DNA of 59,853 bases from a virus, in the IMG/VR virus record IMGVR_UViG_3300027668_001596, positions 1 through 59,853 of that record; one strand, given 5' to 3'. Within the stretch, counting starts at the first letter, position 1. Every line of letters begins with the position of its first letter. Of the stretch, positions 14,759-25,595 are shown in pieces. The notes beneath the pieces are model-generated. The model saw only the letters and a list, made by a program, of their open reading frames with translations, did not search any database and had not been told where the DNA came from. A program made the translations under genes and the position numbers.

Positions 14759-17700
14759 ATGGCGAACATTAAAAACTTTGGTATCAAAGGTGTAGCCGCA
14801 GATATTCAATTTGGTAAGGGCGGAGGGTTCATGGTATATGACAAATCCAATAACAAATTCCAAGTTAAAGATTCTGGTAGTAGTTTAGAAGATATTGAAT
14901 TTGCAACCGTACTGGCGGGTACGTGGGCAGGAACGGCAATATCAGTTGCTAAAGGCGGAACAGGATTAACAACTGTTGCAACTGGCAAAATTCTTTACAC
15001 TACAGGCACCGACACATTTGGTCAAACAGATATATCAGCAACAGGTATTTCACTATTAGGTAGTGCAGATGCGGCGGCTGGTAGAACAGCATTGGGATTA
15101 GGCAACGTAGCAACCCAGGCAAACACAGCAGTAGACATCGACGGTGGTGCTATTGACGGAACAGTAATCGGCGCAAACGCGGCGGCGGCAGGTAGTTTCA
15201 GTACTATCAATGCATCAGGAAATATTACTGGCGCATTAGTTGGCAACGCATCAACAGCCACAACATTAGCAACAGCAAGAACAATTGGTGGAGTATCATT
15301 TAATGGTTCTGCGGCAATCAACTTGCCAGGCGTTAACGCAGTTGGTTCTCAGAATACAACAGGATCAGCGGCATCGTTAACAACTGGAAGAACAGTATCC
15401 GCAACTGGCGATATTGCATGGACATCAGCGGCGTTTGATGGTACTGGTGCAGTAACAGGCGCGGCAACTTTAGCAACAGTTAACAGTGACGTAGGAACAG
15501 CAGGTAGTACTACTTCTATTCCAGTTATCACAGTTAATGCTAAGGGATTAGTAACAGCAGTATCAACGGCTTCAATCGCAACATCATTTAATATTGCGGC
15601 TGACACTGGAACTGCTAACGCATTAGACGGTGGAGAAACACTTTCTATATTAGGTACAACAAACGAAATCGACACAATAGTTACAGCAAATCAAATCCAA
15701 GTTGGATTGGTTGCTAACCCAACTATTGGCGGTAACTTAACTGTTTCTGGAAACTTAACTGTTTCTGGTACTAGAACAGACGTTAACGTAACAAACATGG
15801 CTGTAGAAGATTCACTAGTTGCTTATGCTACTGGTAACTCTTCAGACGCAGTTGATATTGGTTTCTTTGGTAAGTTCAACGACGGATCAAATGATTTAGC
15901 AACTGGTTTATTCAGAGATGCGAACGATGGTAAATACCACTTGTTCACTAGCTCACAGGAAACTATCTCAGGTAACGTAGTAGACAAAGCGGCAACAGGT
16001 TATGCTGTAGCTTCTTTGAAAGCAAATACAGAAGGAACACATACTGGTGCAGTAATTGGTAACGTAACTGGTGATACATCAGGAAGTGCTGGAACTGTAA
16101 CAAGTATTGCAAGTCACGTAATTGATTCAGATTCTATGGCAGGTGCTTCGGCAACTAACGTAGCTTCAGCAGAATCAACTAAAGCATACGTCGACGCTAC
16201 AGTAGGTGCTATTAGTACAGTACTAAGTGTTGGCGCAGACAGTGGTTCAGATGACGGAGTTACAGTTGGAACAGACACATTAAACTTTAATGGTACAGCA
16301 AATGAAATTGAAACAACAGTTAGCGACAACGCTATTACTGTTGGATTAGTTAACTCACCAACAGTAAGTGGTACAATGACAGCGGCAACATTCGCTGGTA
16401 ACTTAACTGGTGACGTAACTGGTACAGCTTCATTGGCAACATTAGCCGCTGATGCAACAACATTAGCAACCGCAAGAGCAATAGGTGGAGTATCGTTTGA
16501 CGGTTCTGCAGATATTAACTTGCCAGGTGTTAATGCCGCAGGTAACCAAGCAACAAGTGGTCAAGCAGGAACAGTAGCAACTATTGCCGCTTTCGTACTT
16601 GACGAAGATAACTTTGCAACGAACAGTGCAACTTTAGTACCTTCACAACAATCTGTTAAAGCATATACTGATGCGGCTATAGCCACAGCAGTTTCGGCTT
16701 CAGACTTAGACTTCACAGCAGACAGCGGTGGTGCTTTAAGTATAGACTTAGATAGTGAAACATTAACTATTGCAGGTGGTACAGGTCTTTCAACTGCTGG
16801 TGCTGGTAACGGCGTAACAGTTAGTTTAGACGCTACGGCAGTAACCGCAGGATCATATGGTAGTACAACTGCTATTCCTGTTATTACAGTAGATGCACAA
16901 GGTAGATTGACATCGGCTTCAACAGCCGCTATTAGTACTGCTTGGACACTTACAGGTGATACTGGAACTCAAACTGTTAACGGTGGAGACACAGTTGACA
17001 TAGCAGGTGGAACTAATATTACTACAGTAGCTAGTGCAACTGACACATTGACAGTTAATCTAGATTCTAACGTAACTGGTTTAACATCTTTGGGTGCAAC
17101 AACAGTAACAGGTACAACAGTAACAGATGGCACGTTTAGTGTTAATAGTGGTGCTATAACAGGCGCAACTAGTATTGGTGCAGTTGACTTAGTATTATCC
17201 GGTAACTTAACTGTTAACGGTACTACAACAAGTGTTTCATCAACTAACACTACAATCTCAGATACATTGATTGAATTACAATCAGGACTAGCTGGCGGAA
17301 ACAGTAGTGATATTGGTATTGTACTAGAACGTGGTAGTACTGGTGATAACGGCTTTATGGGTTGGGACGAGAGCGAAGACAAATTTGCTTTTGCAACAAC
17401 TACAGCAACAGGTACAGCCACTGGCGACTTAACACTTGCAGATGCAGGTATTAAAGTTAGTGACGTATTAGCTTCTGGAACTGTTACATTCGCAAGTTTA
17501 AGCGATGGAGCAATTACAATAGCATCCTTCCAAACTACACTTACAGATAGTGACACTATTGTTCCTACCTCAGGTGCTGTTAAGGATTATGTTGATTCAC
17601 AAGTAGCCGCAGTAGATGATACTGTCTTAAGAGCTTCCTTTACAGCTAACTCTTCAGCAAGTTCATTCAACATTGGCGTTATGCCTAACACATCTGGTAG

Positions 17701-18071: not shown

Positions 18072-18374
18072 ATGACTAAAGACAAAGACGGCGACGGTAA
18101 CGAGCCAATAGACAACGTAGTAAAGTTTCCTTCAAAACCAAAGAAGGCGGACAACGACACTCATTACGAAATTACTATTGAGAGTTTTAGCCCTGAAGAG
18201 TTACACACCAGAATGTCAGATATCGACGATTCATACGAAGCATGTTTTCACTATGCGAAAGCAATTGAATACACCATGCATAATTTCACCACAGACCTAG
18301 ACCTAAACCAGCTTCAGGCCCTAGAAATCAAGTTAAAAGAGATATTTTTGGAGTTTGCTCCAGAAAAAGGTTGA
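18072..18374 (+). CDS. hypothetical acidic protein, 100 aa
   Basis: Hydrophilic, mostly helical; the N-terminal 35 residues are charged and likely disordered (MTKDKDGDGNEPIDN). Begins at the predicted transcription start. It precedes the MoxR gene but is separated from it by another promoter. Function unknown. Confidence 0.65.
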   Translation: MTKDKDGDGNEPIDNVVKFPSKPKKADNDTHYEITIESFSPEELHTRMSDIDDSYEACFHYAKAIEYTMHNFTTDLDLNQLQALEIKLKEIFLEFAPEKG

Positions 18375-18399
18375 CATTGGTACCGGATTTTAGTATAAT
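18371..18399 (+). promoter_or_regulatory. strong sigma70-type promoter for moxR
   Basis: TTGACA (18371-18376), 17-nt spacer, TATAAT (18394-18399), preceded by AAAAAGG. The -35 overlaps the stop of the upstream gene. Confidence 0.85.
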
Positions 18400-18446
18400 A
18401 TATGCATAGGTTGAGAAAACAAACATACATTTCGTAGGAGTAATAT

Positions 18447-19541
18447 ATGGAAACATTAACAGTAAGACCCAGTCAGACAAAGAACATTGTAAACAGAGCC
18501 TTTTTGGCGAAGAGACCAATATTCATGTGGGGTGCACCAGGAATTGGTAAATCTGAACTAATAGAGGGTATTGTAAAGGACATGCCCGGTAACAATTTAA
18601 TGATTGATATGCGTCTAGCATTAATGGAGCCAACTGACCTTAGAGGTTATCCGTTCCGTAATGCAGAAACAAATCAAATGGAGTGGGCGCCACCGGCAGA
18701 CCTTCCTAGCATGGAGCAGTCAGAACTGTACGACACGATTGTATTGTTCTTAGATGAGTTGAACTCAGCTCCTCCAAGTGTACAAGCGGCGGCATACCAG
18801 TTAGTCCTTAATGGTCGAATTGGTCAGTACGTTATGCCAAGCAATGTAAGAATTGTAGCGGCTGGTAACAGAGAGACTGATAGAGGTGTTACTTATAGAA
18901 TGCCTAGTCCGTTAGCAAACAGATTCCGTCATATTAACATGGACATTAACTTCGAAGATTGGAGTGTTTGGGCTGTTAATAATAAGATACACCAAGATGT
19001 TGTTGGGTACTTAACATACAGTAAAGCAGATTTATTTGACTTTGATCCTAAGACATCAAGTCAGTCATTTGCTACACCACGTAGTTGGTCTTTCGTAAGC
19101 GAAATACTAGAAACTGAAGGGTTTGAGTTCGCTCCTGACTTTGAGCAGAAGGCAGAAATTGCTGGAGCAGTTGGAGAAGGCATGGCTATTAAGTTTTGTG
19201 AACATAGAAAGGTTGCTTCAAAGCTACCTAACCCAGAAGATGTATTAACTGGTAAAGTTAAGACCCTTAAGGTAAAAGAGAAGTCAGCTCAGTACTCATT
19301 CGCAATTGGATTATGCTACGAACTAGCCGCTCTTAATAAAGCGGACGACGAAGCGGCATTTGACAAAGGTGTTGATTACTTCTTTGACTTTATAATGGAG
19401 AACTTTGAACCTGAGTTGGTTATCTTTAGTGCTAAGAGTGTTCTTAGTGACCACGACATAGATATTAAGCCTAGAAAACTCCAAGGCAAGAAGGAGTTTA
19501 AGGAACGGTACTGGAAGTACTTGTTCCCCGCTACGGTATAG
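18447..19541 (+). CDS. MoxR-type AAA+ ATPase
   Basis: 364 residues. Walker A GAPGIGKS (29-36), Walker B VLFLDELNSAPPSVQ (about 100-114), sensor 1 VAAGNRETDRG and the arginine-finger region SPLANRFRHINM are all as in the MoxR branch of AAA+ proteins. These act as chaperone-like remodellers with a VWA partner, and a VWA-domain gene lies 190 bp downstream. Ribosome site GTAGGAG precedes the ATG. The C-terminal 120 residues are specific to this protein. Probably made early and strongly, given the promoter. Confidence 0.9.
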   Translation: METLTVRPSQTKNIVNRAFLAKRPIFMWGAPGIGKSELIEGIVKDMPGNNLMIDMRLALMEPTDLRGYPFRNAETNQMEWAPPADLPSMEQSELYDTIVLFLDELNSAPPSVQAAAYQLVLNGRIGQYVMPSNVRIVAAGNRETDRGVTYRMPSPLANRFRHINMDINFEDWSVWAVNNKIHQDVVGYLTYSKADLFDFDPKTSSQSFATPRSWSFVSEILETEGFEFAPDFEQKAEIAGAVGEGMAIKFCEHRKVASKLPNPEDVLTGKVKTLKVKEKSAQYSFAIGLCYELAALNKADDEAAFDKGVDYFFDFIMENFEPELVIFSAKSVLSDHDIDIKPRKLQGKKEFKERYWKYLFPATV

Positions 19542-19555
19542 GACAAAAAAAACTG

Positions 19556-19658
19556 TTGCTGTATCCTACAACGGTACTTGGTTATACTCGTACCGTACGT
19601 TACTCCTACAACCTAACAGCAAAAAGTTTTACCCTGCTCACAAGGCGGGGTTTTTTTT
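19556..19658 (+). ncRNA. candidate structured small RNA with two anti-ribosome-site arms
   Basis: Lies in the gap between the MoxR and VWA genes. A closing helix TTGCTGT/ACAGCAA (19556-19562 with 19616-19622) encloses an inner hairpin ACGGTAC/GTACCGT (19571-19577 with 19590-19596). The sequence TCCTACAAC occurs in both connecting arms (19564-19572 and 19604-19612). A terminator follows at 19632-19658. TCCTAC is complementary to the GTAGGAG ribosome sites of several genes here. It could be cut from the moxR 3' end or made by readthrough; no separate promoter was found. Confidence 0.5.
19632..19658 (+). terminator. Rho-independent terminator
   Basis: CCCTGC pairs with GCGGGG (one G-U pair) around a 7-nt loop, followed by eight T. 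Ends the moxR transcript and the candidate small RNA. Confidence 0.85.
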
Positions 19659-19668
19659 GATTAAAAGG

Positions 19669-19697
19669 TTGACTATGGGGTACTTTGGTAGTATAAT
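19669..19697 (+). promoter_or_regulatory. strong sigma70-type promoter for the VWA gene
   Basis: TTGACT (19669-19674), 17-nt spacer, TATAAT (19692-19697), then TGTATATTAA, a leader block shared with the promoters at 25536, 55009 and 56509. Confidence 0.85.
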
Positions 19698-19732
19698 AGT
19701 TGTATATTAAGTAGAAATTGTAGGAGGTTTTT

Positions 19733-21070
19733 ATGTCATTTAAAACAGATACATTAGCAGTGAAAGGACCAAAGATAACAGGAACACCAAGCGATACAGC
19801 TCACAAGGCTATTGCTACTATTCCTGAATCCAAGCTCACAGATAAAGAAGTTGAAGATAGACTTATATCAACTCGTATTAACATGTTACTACAATGTCCG
19901 TTCTACGGAAACTTAGCATGTCGTTTAGAATTTAAAGACGCTAGTGAATGGTGTCCAACTGCCGCAACAGACGGCAAGTACTTCTACTACAATAAAGATT
20001 TTATATCAGCACTAACTATTCCAAACTTAGTTTTCCTTTGGGGACACGAAGTAGAGCATTGTGTTTACGATCACTTTGGTAGACGAGGTGACCGTAATCC
20101 AATGCTTTGGAACATTGCTAATGACTATGTAGTAAACATGGATTTAGTAGAAGGTAACATTGGTGAGAGAATTACACTAGTTGAGATACTGTTTGATTAC
20201 AAGTATCGTAACTGGATGAGTGAAGAAGTATATGCTGACTTGTTCAAGCAAATGGAAGAAGACGGCAAAGATTTTGAAGATGGAACTACACTTGATGTTC
20301 ACTTAGATATGGAAGATGGTGAAGACGAAGGTAGTGGTCCAGGTATGGAAGGTAACGTTAATGACGGAACCAAAGGTCCAGTAAGATATACAGAAGACGA
20401 AAAACGTAGTATTAAAGAAGCATTTAAGAATGCTACGGTACAGGCGGCACGTTCGGCTGGCGCTGGTAACTTACCTAGTGGCATTAAACGTCTTGTAGAT
20501 GATCTAATTAATCCACAACTTAGTTGGAAAGAGTTACTACCACAGCAAATCCAAAGTGTAATGAGAAGTGACTATAGTTACAATCAGTGTTCACGTAAAG
20601 GAATGGACAGTGGCATTTGGTTGCCAGGCATGGACAGAGAAGAGACTATAGATATCGCAGTTGGTATTGACACATCAGGATCAATGAGCGATGAGATGCT
20701 TAGAGATATCCTTAGCGAAACAAAAGGTGTTATGGATCAATACAGCGACTTCCGTATACACTTGTTCTGCTTTGATACTGAAGTACATAATCCACAAGTG
20801 TTCACTGAGCATAACATGGAAGAGTTTATGGAGTACGAGCCAGGCGGCGGTGGCGGTACTGACTTTGATTGTTGTTTCGATTGGTTCAAAGAAGAAGGCA
20901 TAGTGCCTAAGAAGTTCGTAATGTTTACAGATGGTTACCCTTGGAACAGTTGGGGCGATGAGAACTACTGTGATACATTGTTTATTGTGCATGGCGGAGG
21001 CTATGGCGGGCAGACACCTGTTGCACCTTTCGGCATAACTGTACCTTACAATAGAGATGAAGTAGCATGA
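19733..21070 (+). CDS. VWA-domain protein with zinc-peptidase-like N-terminal domain
   Basis: 445 residues. LWGHEVEHCVYDH (about 102-114) carries an HExxH-like HEVEH metal site as in the DUF2201-type putative metallopeptidase domain. An acidic linker spans about 165-215. A C-terminal von Willebrand A domain has the metal-ion-dependent adhesion site DTSGSMS near 312 and FTDGYPWNSWG. Partner of the upstream MoxR ATPase by established family pairing. Ribosome site TTGTAGGAGG is complementary to the small-RNA arms just upstream. Overlaps the next gene by an ATGA junction. Confidence 0.85.
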   Translation: MSFKTDTLAVKGPKITGTPSDTAHKAIATIPESKLTDKEVEDRLISTRINMLLQCPFYGNLACRLEFKDASEWCPTAATDGKYFYYNKDFISALTIPNLVFLWGHEVEHCVYDHFGRRGDRNPMLWNIANDYVVNMDLVEGNIGERITLVEILFDYKYRNWMSEEVYADLFKQMEEDGKDFEDGTTLDVHLDMEDGEDEGSGPGMEGNVNDGTKGPVRYTEDEKRSIKEAFKNATVQAARSAGAGNLPSGIKRLVDDLINPQLSWKELLPQQIQSVMRSDYSYNQCSRKGMDSGIWLPGMDREETIDIAVGIDTSGSMSDEMLRDILSETKGVMDQYSDFRIHLFCFDTEVHNPQVFTEHNMEEFMEYEPGGGGGTDFDCCFDWFKEEGIVPKKFVMFTDGYPWNSWGDENYCDTLFIVHGGGYGGQTPVAPFGITVPYNRDEVA

Positions 21071-21369
21071 CATCAGTATATAAGTTTACAAAGTTCCATA
21101 GGCTAACTCAAGACGAGTTTGTATTATTGAGAGGCACAGAGTTGGCAGAGAAGATGTTAACTAATAAATGGTTTACTGACTGCAAAGAAGTATTAGATTT
21201 ATTAGATGCCCACGCCACCGGGACATGGTGTGCTGTACCTTATCAAGATGGTTACCTATTATACCTATCAAGTGTCGGAGACATCATACTAGCCAAGCAG
21301 TATGTGGAACCAGGATCAGACCCTGCTCCAACAATACAAGGTATAAATATTGGGTATGAGCATTCCTAA
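21067..21369 (+). CDS. hypothetical protein, 100 aa
   Basis: Begins at the ATGA junction with the VWA gene and ends inside the amidinotransferase start region. Mixed alpha/beta with GTWCAVPYQDGYLLYLSS in the middle; no membrane segment. Co-transcribed with the VWA gene. No family recognised. Confidence 0.65.
   Translation: MTSVYKFTKFHRLTQDEFVLLRGTELAEKMLTNKWFTDCKEVLDLLDAHATGTWCAVPYQDGYLLYLSSVGDIILAKQYVEPGSDPAPTIQGINIGYEHS
21342..21349 (+). promoter_or_regulatory. T4-type late promoter box TATAAATA
   Basis: Exact T4 late consensus, 6 nt before the ATG at 21356 and inside the 3' end of the preceding gene. It would give a leaderless amidinotransferase mRNA. It could also be coincidental coding sequence. 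Confidence 0.45.
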
Positions 21370-22423
21370 ACCAATATGGTCCTGCAACGAGTGGGACACC
21401 TTAAAAGAAATTATAATCGGAACGGCAATAGATGCCAACATACCTGATAATGATTTGAGCCACCATGCTACTAACTATGCTAACTTAACTCCAGAAGAGT
21501 ATGCACAACTGCCCAAGGGACGATACCCTGAGCATGTATACGAAGAGGCAGAAGAGGACTTAGATGCATTAGTTACTGTACTAGAACAAGCAGACGTTAA
21601 GGTTCACAGACCTGATACAAGCGTCATAGACTTCGCTAGTACTGTGAGCAATGGCTTATGGGAATCAACACAATACGAAGCATACTGTCCACGCGATAGT
21701 GTAACTGTTATAGGTGATACTATAATAGAAGGTGCTATGAGTTTACGAGCAAGGTACCATGAGACATTCTTGTTCAACAAACTATTCAAAGAGAAGAGTA
21801 TGCAAGGTGCTAGATGGCTTCCAATGCCTAAGCCCATGCTACAAGATGACTTGTATAAGTTACAGCCAGGCAGAGACCCAAGTGTAAATAACAACGAGCC
21901 TATCTTAGATCCTGCTAACTTGATTAGATGTGGGTACGACATACTGTATTTGATATCTAATACAGGTAACGAGCAAGGTGCTAAATGGCTACAGAACACA
22001 CTCGGAGACGCATTTAAAGTTCATATGATGCACGATCTTTATAGCTGGGCTCATGTAGACAGTACTATTATGCCGTTACGTCCTGGGCTTGTAGTGTTAA
22101 ATGCTAGTAGAGTAGACAAGGATAAAGTCCCTGAGCTATTCAAAACATGGGATAAGATCTGGTACACAGAAGAGATGTGTGTTGGACAGCCATGCTTAGA
22201 AGACTATGCTCCAGCAAGTGAATGGATAGGTATGAACACATTAAGCATTGATCCTAACACGGTTATCGTACCAAGCGAAGAAACGCACTTAATGAGTGCA
22301 ATGGAGAAGCATGGGATAACTCCAGTTCCAGTACAGATGCGCCATATGAGGACATTAGCTGGTGGACCGCATTGTGTAAGCACTGATTTAGTGCGAGAAG
22401 GCACCCTAGAATCGTATAAATAA
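21356..22423 (+). CDS. glycine/inosamine-type amidinotransferase
   Basis: 355 residues from the ATG at 21356 (an in-frame TTG at 21350 is rejected). CNEWDTLKEIIIGT at the N-terminus, PRDSVTVIGDTIIEG in the middle, HVDSTIMPLRPGLVVLN (catalytic His/Asp region) and GGPHCVSTDL near residue 340 (nucleophilic Cys) match the amidinotransferase fold. These enzymes move an amidino group from arginine to an amine, so a modified amine or polyamine product is likely but the acceptor is unknown. A relatively large metabolic gene for a phage. Confidence 0.88.
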   Translation: MSIPKPIWSCNEWDTLKEIIIGTAIDANIPDNDLSHHATNYANLTPEEYAQLPKGRYPEHVYEEAEEDLDALVTVLEQADVKVHRPDTSVIDFASTVSNGLWESTQYEAYCPRDSVTVIGDTIIEGAMSLRARYHETFLFNKLFKEKSMQGARWLPMPKPMLQDDLYKLQPGRDPSVNNNEPILDPANLIRCGYDILYLISNTGNEQGAKWLQNTLGDAFKVHMMHDLYSWAHVDSTIMPLRPGLVVLNASRVDKDKVPELFKTWDKIWYTEEMCVGQPCLEDYAPASEWIGMNTLSIDPNTVIVPSEETHLMSAMEKHGITPVPVQMRHMRTLAGGPHCVSTDLVREGTLESYK

Positions 22424-24481: not shown

Positions 24482-24808
24482 GTGTCAGCTCACGACATTA
24501 AGATATTATTGGTTGCGAAGCATAGTAAGAACAAGAAATTTGAGTCGTTACTCAAGGAAGTCTTTCCTACGGAGATACCTGTTGAAATGATTGATCAGGT
24601 AGTTTTAGAATTTATCGATGGAACACAGGCAAAGCTGGATCATACGGAACTCAAAGATCCATTACCGACTGCCCCTAACAAAACTTGGGCGACGATGATC
24701 CAGGCTTTTACTAATGTTAAACAGATTACTATTGTAGTCGATGTTAACAACGTAGAACAACTGACTAAAAAGAAAGTAGATGATGTACTAGGAAAACACT
24801 TTGACTAA
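24482..24808 (+). CDS. hypothetical protein, 108 aa
   Basis: GTG start behind a good AAGGAG site. Alpha/beta pattern (IKILLVAKHSKNKKFESLL ... ITIVVDVNNVEQL) and no membrane segment. The end overlaps the TTG start of the SDR gene. Not recognised. Confidence 0.65.
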   Translation: MSAHDIKILLVAKHSKNKKFESLLKEVFPTEIPVEMIDQVVLEFIDGTQAKLDHTELKDPLPTAPNKTWATMIQAFTNVKQITIVVDVNNVEQLTKKKVDDVLGKHFD

Positions 24809-25535: not shown

Positions 25536-25564
25536 TTGACTCTGCCCCCGAAACCTAGTATAAT
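25536..25564 (+). promoter_or_regulatory. strong sigma70-type promoter
   Basis: TTGACT (25536-25541), 17-nt spacer, TATAAT (25559-25564), preceded by AAAAAGG and followed by TGTATATTAA. Drives the three-gene unit from 25596. Confidence 0.88.
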
Positions 25565-25595
25565 AGTTGTATATTAAGCAATAAGGGAAAGCAAT

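Follow-up and report, generated by a model that had tools for sequence, protein, structure and literature searches.

In the phages described here, the mRNA of a moxR-like gene most probably carries, in its own 3′ UTR, a self-targeting antisense module that represses the mRNA in which it lies. What the sequences support directly is the complementarity to the moxR ribosome-binding site (RBS), its focus on the translation start, its coevolution with that RBS, the stem that closes the element, and the exposure of its arms in predicted folds. The repression of moxR and the mode of pairing, in cis or in trans, are what we infer as parts of the best explanation. The sequence analysed is a 59,853-base IMG/VR virus contig, called "the window" throughout.

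The element at the 3′ end of the moxR transcript

The features of the moxR and VWA units lie on the + strand. The moxR unit opens with a sigma-70-type promoter at 18371–18399 (TTGACA-17-TATAAT, matching the consensus at 12 of 12 positions in our promoter scan), followed by a predicted mRNA start at about 18406, a 5′-end box, TAGGTT, at 18407–18412, the RBS GTAGGAGTAA at 18434–18443, and the gene itself, a moxR-like AAA+ ATPase (PHROG 1297, Pfam AAA_5), at 18447–19541. The element lies about 15 nt past the moxR stop codon, the intrinsic terminator of the transcript (19631–19658) adjoins it directly on the 3′ side, and the separate, strong promoter of the VWA gene follows at 19669–19697. This gene (RBS TTGTAGGAG at 19718–19726, coding region 19733–21070) is a candidate MoxR partner, consisting by Pfam of a DUF2201_N metallopeptidase and a DUF2201 VWA-like part.

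Between 18399 and 19556 the + strand holds no promoter-like site, in a scan for sigma-70-type sites only. Because the element has no such promoter of its own and is closed by the moxR terminator, it is most simply read from its sequence context as the moxR 3′ UTR, with the antisense lying in the 3′ UTR of its target mRNA and ahead of the terminator, and we have dropped the independent small RNA gene of the original prediction. In L005, which comes from the same contig as L271, a reading region (L005:2200–2930) is inserted between the element and the VWA gene; it separates the element from VWA and not from moxR, and the element therefore belongs to moxR.

The element is held by a 7-bp closing helix (19556–19562/19616–19622, TTGCTGT/ACAGCAA) with a 6-bp extension (19549–19554/19625–19630), so that its 5′ side reads AAAACT-G-TTGCTGT (19549–19562) and its 3′ side ACAGCAA..AGTTTT (19616–19630). 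Within it are arm 1 (TATCCTACAAC, 19562–19572), an inner hairpin (19571–19596, with its stem at 19571–19577/19590–19596), and arm 2 (GTTACTCCTAC, 19599–19609), which is the anti-RBS of moxR. The 9-mer TCCTACAAC is found at 19564–19572 and 19604–19612, its only two copies in the window (0.46 expected). TTACTCCTAC, at 19600–19609, complements the moxR RBS at 18434–18443, while TCCTACAA complements the VWA start region at 19718–19725, and the VWA RBS, a possible second target, is matched by CTCCTACAA in arm 2. The original prediction had placed the helix, the hairpin, the 9-mer in both arms and the terminator correctly, and both of the complementarities it gave are borne out.

Its view of the RNA as structured, with moxR as the target of exposed anti-RBS arms, also holds. 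Folding is better than that of shuffles (z −3.1; for the element without its terminator, z −3.35 and 0 of 200 shuffles), both arms are about 80% unpaired in the predicted fold, and moxR ranks first of the 83 predicted start sites in the window for pairing with the element (second of 390, first of 377 and fifth of 265 in the other three of the four records compared). None of 4227 Rfam families matches the element at gathering or relaxed thresholds; tRNA and tmRNA matches in relatives lie outside it. One of these phage contigs has a tmRNA gene upstream of moxR (L441:2–379), with matches to two tmRNA models, the permuted and the betaproteobacterial.

Close relatives, recruited via the VWA and moxR proteins, keep the closing stem, both arms as TATCCTACA and GTTACTCCTACAA, and the terminator. 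The sequence of the stem shifts while its pairing stays (TTGCTGT/ACAGCAA in the window, GTTACTG/CAGTGAC in L271), and over 51 elements, which were selected for having such arms, the 5′ and 3′ flanks of the same element pair at −16.1 kcal/mol, compared with −11.4 kcal/mol for reassigned flanks (0 of 5000 permutations, z −10.7). L271, L273, L275 and L281 lack the inner hairpin, and L270, L272 and L276 have a different one; judged by this comparison the hairpin is dispensable, and it was rejected as the functional core. Of the covariation anticipated in both helices, that of the closing helix is thus present and that of the hairpin is not, and the anticipated conservation of the two arms is seen. 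The 3′ element of one group (L313, L314, L315, L328, L335 and L356) is closed by another conserved motif, GTAAGTCCTC. Searching with a loose two-arm DNA pattern gave at least 120 matches in each of the viral and genome collections, which are chance hits, and a stricter version also caught unrelated, apparently coding matches.

Coevolution with the moxR RBS

More distantly related loci have other arms and a correspondingly different moxR RBS. The RBS and its 3′ UTR antisense are AGGTAGGTT and AACCTACCT in L289, AGGAGTGATGTA and TACATCACTCCT in L445, AGGAGTAGTA and TACTACTCCT in L448, GAAAGGAGTA and TACTCCTTTC in L328, GAACACAGCCC and GGGCTGTGTTC in L309, GGACACAGCC and GGCTGTGTCC in L302, ATAGCCCTATGTCC and GGACATAGGGCTAT in L441, and AGCAGGAGAA and TTCTCCTGCT in L496, where the antisense adjoins the stop codon. 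The stretches of L289, L445, L309 and L441 are mutually unrelated and match unrelated RBSs, and some stretches match outside the Shine–Dalgarno (SD) core, for example AGCCCTATGTC. L289 and L445 make the point within a single comparison: their MoxR proteins share 86% amino-acid identity, their own matches are 9 and 12 nt long, and the swapped matches are 5 and 5 nt. The architectures that carry the antisense also vary, from a large closed loop to a compact hairpin within the terminator stem and others, which implies either one ancestral module rewritten many times or more than one origin.

We quantified this over 184 non-redundant phage moxR loci, drawn from among the matches listed (80 per scan of about 600), taking −25 to +6 as the RBS window; gene starts came from simple calling rules, a source of noise in the RBS comparisons. 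On average, the longest perfect match of a locus's own RBS to its own 3′ UTR spans 7.67 nt, against 6.13 nt with reassigned UTRs (0 of 5000 permutations, z 16.9, a value inflated, like the other permutation z values, by the relatedness of the loci). Duplex energy behaves in the same way (−16.86 own, −13.69 reassigned, z −13.7), and a control stretch at −80 to −50 shows no effect (5.82 own, 5.80 reassigned).

Since related loci are not independent, a positional profile and a sister-pair swap were added. In the profile, complementarity of 8-mers is highest from −10 to +6 around the start codon (0.110 versus 0.024 at −6) and near background elsewhere between −76 and +58, where no value exceeds the 0.019 seen at −50. 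An effect of shared ancestry would be expected at every position to the same degree. In the swap test, which uses non-overlapping sister pairs on the protein tree, the own match is better in 29 pairs and the swapped match in 10, with 34 ties (p 0.0017), the control stretch giving 25 versus 23. The ties are many because close relatives keep the same site, and the window's own clade offers few informative pairs (3 versus 0). The result stands with a shorter UTR window (26 versus 10, p 0.006) and with G–U pairs allowed (28 versus 14, p 0.02), and is weaker when scored by duplex energy (39 versus 27; sign test p 0.09, Wilcoxon 0.03). The swap test is sound but more modest than the permutation tests. 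The idea that these phages use self-antisense generally was rejected, as other genes with 3′ gaps in the same records have no trend toward complementarity with their own RBS (z 1.0, 0.4, −0.8 and −1.4).

Part of the family has a second, adjacent contact. For the window clade and its sisters, the bases immediately 3′ of the anti-RBS arm match the box that opens the leader, and do so in the antiparallel order that pairing requires: AACCTA (19610–19615), directly 3′ of arm 2, faces the TAGGTT box in the window, and the pair covaries in relatives (TAACTAA/TTAGTTA in L290, TACCTAA/TTAGGTA in L288 and ACCTACATA/TATGTAGGT in L494). This segment matches its own upstream leader better than the comparison value (4.87 versus 4.49, z 4.5), whereas the sequence on the opposite side of the arm gives z 1.3. 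For the window, the predicted co-fold pairs 17 contiguous nucleotides (19599–19615) with the SD region and with 18407–18412, at an interaction energy of −17.6 kcal/mol, and the duplex reaches −30.6 against −18.0 (sd 3.8) for shuffled leaders. None of the window's other leaders that follow strong promoters contains the TAGGTT box.

The carriers are uncultured phages, all metagenomic and often on very long contigs. No comparable element is seen among the eleven cultured phages examined (PA5oct, Vibrio 2.275, Phosso, Atu_ph07, SCTP-2, S-TIM66, G, GAP32, PHA46, Kaldavass and phiFa), relatives with plain terminators at moxR, and in about 40% of the loci no self-complementary element is clearly present. 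The module is therefore not required for moxR function.

Proposed feedback on moxR and competing explanations

We propose that the closing stem would present the anti-RBS sequence as an open loop right before the terminator. After transcription has reached the gene end, this exposed sequence, which is GTTACTCCTACAACCTA in the window, could pair with the SD region of a moxR mRNA and, in part of the family, with the 5′-end box as well. Such pairing would hide the SD and the start codon and block ribosome entry, probably also exposing the mRNA to decay, so that moxR would cap its own synthesis by negative feedback. It might form within one mRNA, across about 1.2 kb, as in icaR, or in trans through a small RNA processed from the 3′ UTR, as with OppZ and CarZ.

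A possible, if somewhat doubtful, alternative overlaps with this explanation and adds trans action on several targets: the released 3′ end would serve a small regulon, repressing moxR, VWA and further genes with GTAGGAG-type RBSs. The VWA gene has its own promoter past the terminator, and its RBS complements the element in many marine loci, over 9 nt in the window clade, L270, L316 and L461. Over 121 loci the values are 6.45 own versus 5.71 reassigned (z 7.1). Other RBSs also rank high in more than one genome, such as that of the large tail-fibre-like gene at 14759 (ranks 5, 7 and 12). Against this, the VWA swap test gives 18 versus 10 (p 0.09, not significant; 3 versus 1 in the marine clade), by which VWA was not accepted as a proven second target, and VWA falls outside the top 16 start sites in G001. 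Since similar extended SDs are common to many phage genes, matches in trans can moreover be by-products. The GTAGGAG core, which the original prediction took as the signal of a gene group, occurs 10 times in the window with 6.15 expected, no clear enrichment, and was discarded as a regulon signal. Of the targets first proposed, moxR is retained as the main, coevolving one and a broad set of early genes is not; for VWA the match is present, and an extension of targeting to this partner gene is plausible from the sequence comparisons.

Pairing of the two ends might instead loop the mRNA and shield it from nucleases without repression. This would suit the part of the family that pairs with the very 5′ end, and it has a precedent in the hbs mRNA of Bacillus subtilis, in which a 14-nt 5′–3′ interaction stabilises the message by blocking RNase Y (PMC7821165). 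The hbs mRNA resembles the phage moxR mRNA in its long-range 5′–3′ pairing, which is not described there as RBS occlusion. We consider this unlikely for moxR, as coevolution is seen at the SD and start codon, and covering these should block initiation. More improbable still is a reading without RNA–RNA pairing, in which a sequence of generic anti-SD type or a protein-binding motif is kept for some other reason and matches strong SDs by chance. This would fit the alike SDs and the strongly conserved TCCTACA and ACTCC arms of the marine clade, but not the entirely different antisense of other clades, matching their own different RBSs even outside the SD core, nor the focus of complementarity on −10 to +6.

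For self-targeting antisense, the broader implication is that 3′ sequences changing in step with the RBS they face, in the same gene of many phage genomes, constitute natural compensatory-mutation evidence. If the reading is true, feedback in these phages runs through RNA with no protein regulator. Comparing each 3′ UTR with its own RBS becomes available as a simple sequence rule for detecting more such loops, and the question arises why MoxR in particular must be capped. More tentatively, RNA-only feedback on moxR may have originated, or been rewired, on several occasions within a large uncultured phage group, the 3′ UTR following changes in its own RBS, with some lineages perhaps also setting the MoxR:VWA ratio in trans.

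Relation to known systems and neighbouring genes

Self-targeting 3′ UTRs are already known in a few bacterial genes, each in a narrow species range. The closest are OppZ and CarZ of Vibrio cholerae, autoregulatory 3′-UTR-derived small RNAs that are RNase E-processed and Hfq-dependent, CarZ pairing in the carA 5′ UTR (PMC7398697), and that serve also as precedent for a processed 3′ fragment pairing in trans (PMC9438474). As there, the phage antisense lies in a 3′ UTR before the terminator, lacks its own promoter, and is predicted to pair with the translation start of its own transcript; unlike these bacterial RNAs, which act on operons, it belongs to a phage gene and coevolves across many genomes. 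The icaR 3′ UTR of Staphylococcus aureus likewise pairs with the RBS of its own mRNA, through a UCCCC anti-RBS motif that involves RNase III and is lacking in S. epidermidis (PMC7821165), whereas the phage stretches are often 8 to 14 nt long, usually lie inside a closed stem, and have repeatedly changed with pairing kept. CisR, from the prtV 3′ UTR of V. cholerae, represses its parent gene via the 5′ UTR, as well as another target (PMC13250501); it shares with the phage element a 3′-UTR RNA directed at the parent gene's 5′ UTR, but is host-encoded, its phage link being repression of a CTX phage mRNA.

Phage-encoded regulatory RNAs are familiar too: PreS of lambda acts on host dnaN, OOP is expressed from a promoter of its own, and sar of P22 is an antisense RNA that blocks ant initiation; the passages retrieved from a 2025 review of phage small RNAs mention no self-targeting 3′ UTR (PMC12197685). 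Our literature search, with limited coverage of subscription papers, likewise found none in phages. What appears to be new is that phages encode such a 3′-UTR self-antisense, that it centres on one gene, and that in many genomes it coevolves with the RBS it faces; this coevolution points to an RNA-only feedback brake on phage moxR, undescribed for phages in the literature searched. Cuckoo-type alphaproteobacterial RNAs are independent, trans-acting and share the motif CCUCCUCCC. They resemble the phage element in their exposed C/U-rich anti-SD loops, but the antisense here tracks the RBS of one gene, and assignment to this type was rejected with the promoter scan described above, the element not being an independent gene.

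Several observations concern the surrounding genes. The VWA family is labelled "HNH endonuclease" by PHROG 1314 and in many phage records, which is probably a propagated misannotation. Downstream of VWA, at 21350–22423, lies a phage protein whose C-terminal part matches arginine deiminase (PF02274, 1.3e-7). The RBSs of the gene at 14759 and of those at 24482 and 30908 (minus) pair well with the element arms and are possible further targets, homologues of the 24482 gene ranking high elsewhere too (ranks 4 and 1). Finally, an identical 23-nt promoter/leader segment (AGTATAATAGTTGTATATTAAG..) occurs before two genes, at 19689–19711 and 25556–25578, and the initial transcribed sequence GTATATTAA is common to several of the phage promoters.
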